A stretch of DNA of 54,403 nucleotides from Nocardioidaceae bacterium (GTDB lineage Bacteria > Actinomycetota > Actinomycetes > Propionibacteriales > Nocardioidaceae): NCBI GenBank assembly GCA_029266455.1, contig JAQSWV010000013.1, positions 1 to 54,403 on the forward strand. Reading direction: 5' to 3'. The notes below the pieces were generated by a model. That model saw nothing but the letters and a program-made list of their open reading frames with translations, made no database searches and was not told the origin of the DNA. Positions 20,686-47,821 of the stretch are shown here, in pieces; within the stretch, counting starts at the first letter, position 1, and every line of letters begins with the position of its first letter. The position numbers and the translations under genes were made by a program.

Positions 20686-20775
20686 CCCCGCCCCCCTTAG
20701 GGCCGCGATCCGCGACTTGTGCAGGCGCCCGAGACCCCCGCCCCCCTTTTGGCCGCGATCCGCGACTTGTGCAGG
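20686..20775. repeat. two-copy 40-base direct repeat, 50-base period
   Basis: CCCCGCCCCCCTT, two variable bases, then GGCCGCGATCCGCGACTTGT and CAGG-ending remainder: copy 1 at 20686-20725, copy 2 at 20736-20775. The last 25 bases are identical between copies. They begin two bases after the stop of the plus-strand membrane protein and lie between it and the convergent PH-domain gene. Confidence 0.95.
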
Positions 20776-26419: not shown

Positions 26420-26453
26420 GGCGTCGAAGTCTAGGGCTCCCTGCCGGCTGGAG

Positions 26454-26539
26454 TTTTCGCAGCCCACCCAGCGAAAGTGGCGCCTCCAGGGCGCTGTAGC
26501 GCTGTGGGAGTGCAGGTTTCGCAGCCCACCCTGCGAAAA
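26454..26539. repeat. pair of palindromic repeats between rsmB and rpe
   Basis: Copy 1 at 26455-26476 and copy 2 at 26517-26538, 62 bases apart, each TTTCGC...GCGAAA around a CCCACC core. Copy 2 has a perfect eight-pair stem (TTTCGCAG/CTGCGAAA). Copy 2 lies about 11 bases beyond the rsmB stop. It could act as a terminator, but the two-copy layout also suits a dispersed repeat. Confidence 0.9.
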
Positions 26540-26549
26540 CTCGCCCGCC

Positions 26550-31086: not shown

Positions 31087-31190
31087 GATCATCCGCGCGT
31101 TACGACGATGCAGTGATCGTCGTACTGCACGGATGAGCACAGGGTGGTGGGGCCGCGGCGTCAGCGCGATCGTCGTACTGCGCGGATGAT
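31087..31190. repeat. three copies of the ATCATCCGCG intergenic repeat (locus 1)
   Basis: Copies at 31088-31108 (plus orientation, divergent: ATCATCCGCGCGTTACGACGA-like), 31116-31136 and 31169-31190 (both reversed; the last reads ATCGTCGTACTGCGCGGATG on the plus strand). The consensus is ATCATCCGCGCAGTACG followed by RCGA. They fill the gap between metK and priA. The same family occurs at 47.5 kb. The first and second copies are inverted 8 bases apart and could form a hairpin. Confidence 0.92.
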
Positions 31191-46892: not shown

Positions 46893-47468
46893 GTGACGAA
46901 CGAGTACGCACATGCGCTGGGCGCACGATTGCGTTCGATCCGCCAGCAGCAAGGCATGTCCCTGCAGGCTGTCGAGGAGAAGTCGCAGGGCCGCTGGAAG
47001 GCGGTCGTGATCGGCTCCTACGAGCGCGGCGACCGTGCCGTGACCGTGCACAAGCTCTCCGAGCTGGCCCGGTTCTACGGCGTACCTGTTGAGGAGCTGC
47101 TGCCGGGCGGGAGCCAGACGGCACCCGCGGCGATGGAGCCCCCGGAGCGACTCATCCTGGATCTCACCCAGCTGCACAACCTCGACGAGCACGACGCCGC
47201 GCCGCTGGCCCGGTACGCGCAGTCGATCCAGTCCCAGCGTGGCGACTACAACGGCAGGGTGCTGTCCATCCGCCAGGAGGACCTGCGCACGCTGGCAGTC
47301 ATCTACGAGGAGCAGCCGAGCGTGCTGGCCGCACGGCTGACCGCATGGGGCGTGCTGCGGCCCGCGGCGCGACCGGAGCCGACCGACAGCCCGTCGGAGA
47401 GCGACGACGCGCCGATCACCACCGCCGCCGGCGGAGCCGAGTGGGCCTCGCCCGCCCACCCCGCCTGA
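46893..47468 (+). CDS. bldD: BldD-family developmental regulator, c-di-GMP responsive
   Basis: Global DNA-binding regulator. It has 191 residues from GTG 46893 (AGGGAGG upstream). Residues ~8-70 are an XRE-type helix-turn-helix (LGARLRSIRQQQGMSLQAVEEK...). The C-terminal domain has the cyclic-di-GMP signature RxD-x8-RxxD, seen as R116-G-D118 and R127-Q-E-D130, so tetramer control by c-di-GMP should be retained. A ~45-residue disordered Pro/Ser/Ala tail follows. Divergent from pyrR, as in Streptomyces and relatives. Confidence 0.95.
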   Translation: MTNEYAHALGARLRSIRQQQGMSLQAVEEKSQGRWKAVVIGSYERGDRAVTVHKLSELARFYGVPVEELLPGGSQTAPAAMEPPERLILDLTQLHNLDEHDAAPLARYAQSIQSQRGDYNGRVLSIRQEDLRTLAVIYEEQPSVLAARLTAWGVLRPAARPEPTDSPSESDDAPITTAAGGAEWASPAHPA

Positions 47469-47470
47469 CC

Positions 47471-47697
47471 GATCATCCGCGCAGTACGGCGACCGGCGGA
47501 GGCGTGGAATCGCTGCGCCTCGCCTCCCTGACCCATCATCCGCGCAGTACGGCGACCGGCGGGGGCGTCCACTGTCGTCGAGCCTCGCCGTAGTGCGCGG
47601 ATGATCGACGTGGTGGCTATGGTGCGTCGCCGTAGTGCGCGGATGATCGACGTGGTGGCTCTGGTGCGTCGCCGTAGTGCGCGGATGATCGACGTGG
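47471..47697. repeat. five copies of the ATCATCCGCG intergenic repeat (locus 2), partly in 42-base tandem
   Basis: Two copies in plus orientation begin at 47472 and 47535 (ATCATCCGCGCAGTACG then GCGACCGGCGG). Three reversed copies begin at 47585, 47627 and 47669; these three are embedded in an almost exact 42-base tandem unit. The array starts two bases after the bldD stop. The consensus is the same as at 31.1 kb. Confidence 0.95.
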
Positions 47698-47752
47698 GGG
47701 CTCCGCGCGGCAGTGGGTCCCACGGGGCAGTGGGCTCGCCCCACACAGGGAA

Positions 47753-47784
47753 TCGCCCGGCCCGACGTGGGTCGGACCGGGCGA
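47753..47784. terminator. strong bidirectional terminator hairpin
   Basis: 14-pair stem (TCGCCCGG-CCCGAC against GTCGG-ACCGGGCGA, one G-U) with a four-base GTGG loop, between the convergent bldD and osmoprotectant transporter genes and about 40 bases beyond the stop of the binding-protein gene. On the minus strand TTCCCTGTG follows. Confidence 0.75.
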
Positions 47785-47821
47785 CTCGCTCATGCTGGGT
47801 GGTGCTGATGACCTGCCGCGG

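Follow-up and report, generated by a model that had tools for sequence, protein, structure and literature searches.

The array of short repeats behind bldD in the window (the whole 54,403-nucleotide stretch of Nocardioidaceae DNA analysed here) belongs to a family dispersed through its genome, and this family, which we call A, brackets in facing orientation a gene for a protein with AbiEi domains and a putative nuclease domain. Family A probably consists of DNA sites cognate to that one AbiEi-nuclease, spread by cutting and repair, with the arrays beside the gene also serving as its operators. The evidence, taken together, suggests a REPIN/RAYT-like system that works with an unrelated AbiEi-nuclease and has not been described before.

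The bldD array and its family across the genome

The sequence-only reading had reported five copies of one element behind bldD, two plus and three minus, with the reversed three in a 42-base tandem; the copies are real, at 47472-47689, and the 42-bp tandem is seen at 47586-47689 (Table 1). The gene was also named correctly, since its product matches the BldD-like C-terminal domain (E 1e-32). The two plus copies lie 63 bp apart in similar surroundings, and a 17-mer of the family has 8 matches in the window at ≤3 mismatches, against 0.19 expected. The element had been noticed again 16 kb away and taken for a dispersed family, which it is: three copies occur there, between metK and priA as read from the translations, and the whole-genome search then proposed gives 98 matches at ≤3 mismatches, with one match for the reversed pattern; the core of the family is ATCATCCGCGCANTACGNCG. 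The genome of the window, G000, is a draft of 3.43 Mb in 128 contigs, 97% complete. The matches group into about 38 clusters, mostly intergenic. When all copies are aligned with 40-bp flanks, different loci agree in nothing but the 20-bp core, in which inspection shows no stem of note; neighbouring copies of one locus often have similar flanks, which implies that arrays grow locally.

Copies on the same strand are spaced at about 31, 42, 53, 63 and 73 bp, and 32 independent spacings give a best period of 10.5-10.6 bp (R 0.76, p~1e-8; the p-values for phasing here and below presuppose independent arrays). Measured between ATCCGCG anchors, a plus copy and the minus copy after it stand apart by distances of the same series (31, 42-43, 52 and 64). 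Plus precedes minus at 25 junctions, against 3 in the reverse order, in the two-strand clusters of families A and B pooled, and many clusters carry one orientation only. With genes called by our own gene caller, 29 of 68 placed clusters lie between convergent genes, gaps that make up 15% of the sampled intergenic bases, and 13 lie between divergent genes. Two identities were rejected: a coding repeat, because spacings of 42, 53 and 63 bp do not as a set preserve frame and nearly all clusters are intergenic, and a directional 3'-UTR element, because sense and antisense placements do not differ significantly (37 against 25 copies and 14 against 9 clusters, by hand count). Viral contigs contained no copies of the repeat and no confirmed relatives of the protein, and matches to the family A pattern in the wider set of genome contigs were single and scattered and were taken as chance.

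Several G000 contigs start or end inside repeat arrays (C2:1-121, C80:1-153, C8, C9, C15, C18, C61, C91, C92 and C98). The end of C2 overlaps that of C80 in reverse complement, and the two together make one +++ -- array between convergent genes. Arrays thus interrupted the short-read assembly, and the genome may contain more copies than were counted.

Further families were found by counting 14-mers in 450 kb. Family B (GATCCGCGANTTGTGCAGG) has 158 copies in G000 at ≤3 mismatches (control 8); its phasing is weak (R 0.33, p~0.005) and its plus-minus pairs are unphased. Family D is a 22-bp tandem, GCAACCNNNAGCCGCTGANNG, with 38 copies in G000, 56 in G007, a second species of the same genus, and background numbers elsewhere. 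Family F is dispersed and REPIN-like, and consists of TTTCGCAGCCCACCCTGCGAAA together with a GGGCGCTGCAGCGCCC palindrome. Families C, E and H7, perfect local tandems of 23, 24 and 12 bp, were also seen, at L115:8092-8226, L122:10661-10797 and L095:8968-9024, and no dispersed copies of them were noticed in the same counting.

Table 1. Positions of repeat copies, partner genes and associated loci. Bare numbers are positions in the window.
Feature	Location	Strand	Remark
Family A copy 1	47472..47491	+	begins 3 bp past bldD stop codon
Family A copy 2	47535..47554	+	
Family A copy 3	47586..47605	-	part of 42-bp tandem
Family A copy 4	47628..47647	-	part of 42-bp tandem
Family A copy 5	47670..47689	-	part of 42-bp tandem
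Family A copy, second window cluster	31088..31107	+	
Family A copy, second window cluster	31118..31137	-	2 mismatches
Family A copy, second window cluster	31171..31190	-	
Family B copy (GATCCGCGANTTGTGCAGG)	20707..20725	+	
Family B copy	20757..20775	+	
Two family F copies, TTTCGCAGCCCACCC and palindromic surroundings	26453..26541		same sequence brackets AbiEi-type gene at G000:C115
bldD, 5' neighbour of array	46893..47468	+	BldD-like C-terminal domain
Hairpin past array	47750..47790		likely native terminator
Family A partner gene	G000:C98:~258-1220 (homology match 312-1217)		between two facing family A arrays
Family B partner gene	G000:C55:27627-28544		facing family B arrays
Family D partner gene	G000:C5:22883-23782		facing family D arrays
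Family D partner gene in G007	G007:C229:358-1260		facing family D arrays
Family F partner gene	G000:C115:6268-7014		more distant homologue, bracketed by family F
Family F sites	window 26453-26541; L115:4655; L115:7142; L125:4622; L178		
Loci with CTGTGGA/TTGTGGA element upstream of gene	L173, L174, L175, L177, L180-L207, L228-L233		
Loci with home position relA/DUF349	L174, L177, L180, L181, L183, L190, L198, L200, L204, L228-L231		gene often there
DUF559 loci of Tsukamurella tyrosinosolvens NCTC13231	L249:2334-3347; L252:21620-23000		

Genes between facing arrays

The hint that an associated gene might be found, as in REP/RAYT systems, proved fruitful. Listing the G000 genes that lie between facing arrays led to two AbiEi-domain paralogues, and family A brackets an AbiEi-nuclease gene. 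A search of G000 and G007 with one partner protein gave four close homologues, and each of them lies between arrays of one family that face each other. G000 has four paralogues and four repeat families, one each, in facing orientation, and in the two species of the genus the presence of families A, B and D matches the presence of their own paralogue.

The partner proteins carry AbiEi_4/AbiEi_1 domains, followed at the C terminus by a weak match to the MTES_1575 restriction fold (best E 2.5e-5, below the curated cut-off). The AbiEi matches (PF13338/PF09407 and PADLOC AbiEi) are strongest in the B protein and lie below the Pfam cut-off in the D proteins. PD-(D/E)XK nucleases (DUF559/MTES_1575) are marked by E...D...ExD-type residues; in the partner proteins GES, D231, EYDG and H are invariant. 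A maximum-likelihood tree makes the A and B proteins sisters and sets D apart. The protein sequences matched no solved structure and no NCBIfam model. The genes read beside the partners include relA, DUF349, ispD and ispF, among others, and no AbiEii was noticed in this reading of neighbours. A protein with one weak DUF559 match (PF04480), at G000:C83, was considered as a partner and rejected, being without flanking repeats.

As a separate observation, a CTGTGGA/TTGTGGA element stands 41-66 bp before the first model position of the AbiEi-nuclease gene in all 38 close homologues, downstream in none of the 38, and in 2.8% of random 250-bp windows. It often reads TGTGGAC/T and resembles the actinobacterial DnaA box.

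Turnover within the genus and occurrence in other genera

G007 lacks families A and B, and the other genomes searched show them at background level. The gap after bldD measures about 90 bp in G007, against about 350 bp in G000, and holds a terminator-like hairpin directly after the gene; the other orthologous loci compared in G007 carry no family A copies either. Behind the RNase J gene, G007 has a family D array where G000 has family A. An otsB-type gene lying between two facing family A arrays (L059:2033-3199) is inverted relative to its neighbours in G007 (L088), as if the facing arrays had recombined. The sequence-only reading had looked to relatives for conservation: the letters of the repeat are not conserved, but the system is, with other letters.

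A survey took in 246 genomes of the same taxonomic family, spread over 26 genera; a homologue at 1e-30 or better is present in 185 of them. We compared the 450-bp flanks of 34 close homologues outside the genus, with at least three shared 11-mers as the criterion. Inverted flank repeats were found in 30 and direct ones in none, against 5% and 6% of random segments; among more distant homologues, inverted flank repeats occur in 7 of 14. The flank motifs vary between genera, with periods mostly of 20-22 bp. One of them flanks the gene in two genomes and occurs there 90 and 97 times (controls 1), and in 400 kb of a third genome no 14-mer is repeated more often than the flank motif. The more alike two proteins are, the more often they share a motif: none of 522 pairs does so below 40% identity, and 5 of 7 pairs do above 80% (Mantel p 0.001). 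Paralogues within one genome share no motif in 9 cases out of 9. Part of this co-divergence could reflect shared ancestry of the flanks, but as a sole cause such ancestry is opposed by the different motifs of paralogues in the same genome.

In several genera the gene often occupies one home position, with relA and a DUF349 gene on its two sides as we read the neighbourhoods, which suggests that it has long been inherited vertically. Farther afield, Tsukamurella tyrosinosolvens NCTC13231 has two DUF559 genes, each between two copies of its own palindromic element, the first of which occurs in 8 records of NCTC13231 and in no other plasmid record. No convergent arrays were found at a Nonomuraea homologue.

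Proposed mode of spread, competing explanations and known systems

From the sequences we infer DNA binding, cleavage, copying by repair, autoregulation and mobility in the following manner. The N-terminal winged helix of the A protein would bind the ~20-bp core, with several protein molecules on one helix face per array, which would give the whole-turn spacings. The C-terminal restriction-fold nuclease would then nick or cut in or beside bound arrays, and repair would copy repeats into new intergenic places and expand arrays locally. Selection against damage would leave many arrays between convergent genes, as behind bldD, and the arrays flanking the nuclease gene probably double as its operators. 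Binding of the protein to its repeat is the most likely link, given that each family pairs with its own gene, that motifs and proteins diverge together and that spacings are phased. A spread through cutting and repair is more tentative, because the flanks are uncopied and each species is represented by one genome. At the promoters of AbiEi genes, the AbiEi proteins are known to occupy inverted repeats of 23 bp (PMC7319586), and a comparable proposal of spread by a cognate enzyme has been made for REPINs with RAYTs (PMC3116915). Since flanks are not copied with the core, no transposition unit is visible. The weak phasing of family B, its unphased plus-minus pairs and the 7 of 14 distant homologues without bracketing repeats count against this explanation, and members of the set could be conserved for a host function and not be mobile.

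Taken further, that last idea would make the AbiEi-nuclease a domesticated DNA-organising or transcription-blocking factor and the arrays selected chromosomal sites at the ends of transcription units, without self-copying. The whole-turn spacing of family A, the excess of clusters between convergent genes and the conserved relA/DUF349 home locus in several genera agree with it, but motifs and positions are wholly replaced between species of one genus and 13 of 68 clusters lie between divergent genes, so that we regard it as unlikely. We find it harder still to believe in addiction or a decoy, where arrays keep a harmful nuclease bound and inactive and repress its gene, loss of arrays frees the nuclease, and arrays accumulate as protection; to our knowledge this protein family has no toxin-like effect, which counts against the idea. 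Arrays on either side of each gene, the repression by AbiEi proteins of their own promoters (PMC7319586) and a nuclease motif intact in sequence would all suit such a role, but some 100 sites are more than repression needs.

Transcription terminators or structured RNA between convergent genes seem very improbable to us. The bldD array does fold strongly as RNA (z -5.3), clusters are enriched between convergent genes, and the earlier claim that inverted copies can pair into long stems stands to the extent that such stems are possible. However, the many clusters of one orientation cannot make a stem, so pairing is not a common feature; a separate hairpin persists past the bldD array, Rfam gave no match, and whole-turn spacing is a property of duplex DNA. 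The features common to clusters are phased spacing and convergent order, not pairing. The idea of standard REP/REPIN elements mobilised by a RAYT (Y1) transposase, the kind of associated gene that the sequence-only reading suggested looking for, can be dismissed with little hesitation: copy number, intergenic sites, inverted pairs and one flavour per cognate gene are as in REPIN-RAYT (PMC3116915), but the Y1_Tnp search (PF01797) gave no match in the 97% complete G000 and was positive in five control genomes, and the bracketed gene encodes a putative AbiEi-nuclease. The sequence-only reading was also right that the repeat matches no named class.

Our preferred reading, sites cognate to an AbiEi-nuclease, nevertheless has a close parallel in REPIN-RAYT systems, which comprise short dispersed intergenic inverted pairs at about 100 copies per genome, a single-copy cognate gene and fast turnover between species (PMC3116915). 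Here too there are about 100 dispersed intergenic copies, inverted pairs and fast turnover between species, and each flavour (A, B, D, F) stands beside its own single-copy cognate gene, of the AbiEi-nuclease kind. The differences lie in the cognate protein, which joins an AbiEi winged helix to a putative restriction-fold nuclease, with no Y1 gene found, and in the tandem arrays, set in whole turns and facing each other on either side of the gene. The REP core is a palindrome or hairpin, usually GTAG- or CGTC-tagged, whereas the family A core of about 20 bp is not a hairpin; palindromes do occur in family F and in the elements of Tsukamurella. Mycobacterial MIRU and other VNTRs likewise form tandem copies in intergenic regions of actinobacteria, but the present repeats have another unit, face each other and bracket a cognate gene in each family. 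With the AbiE type IV toxin-antitoxin system (AbiEi, Rv2827c) the partners share AbiEi DNA-binding and C-terminal domains and a similar repeat length, the 23 bp at AbiEi's own promoter being protein-bound there (PMC7319586); they differ in an extra C-terminal putative nuclease domain, in arrays on both sides and about 100 further genomic sites, and in that no AbiEii partner was noticed beside the genes read. E. coli BIME/REP elements (PMC2817692) also form intergenic mosaic clusters near gene ends, with alternating orientation and REP hairpins there, in contrast to the facing phased arrays and non-palindromic core here.

The system is not REP/RAYT, given that the Y1 gene was not found and the family A core lacks a hairpin; a REPIN-RAYT-like partnership working with a non-homologous enzyme would make it a new kind of system, though not a new way of life. 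Open-access full texts yielded no description of repeats paired with AbiEi-DUF559 proteins; subscription papers and preprints fell mostly outside this search, and an earlier description is possible. We are evenly divided on the broader proposal of a widespread actinobacterial class, selfish or domesticated, of AbiEi-nuclease genes, each with genome-wide convergent, phased sites of ~20 bp spread by site-specific cleavage and repair. It would then be the second partnership of this kind beside REPIN-RAYT, of independent origin and with a restriction-fold nuclease at its centre. A large group of actinobacterial AbiEi/DUF559-type proteins, all uncharacterised, acquires a cognate repeat population and with it a function that can be tested, and ready pairs of protein and site (A, B and D in one cell) become available for studies of DNA recognition. 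Repeat arrays may account for some short-read assembly breaks and small inversions, and for the question of how short non-autonomous repeats survive and multiply in bacterial genomes the system is a second case, independent of the first.
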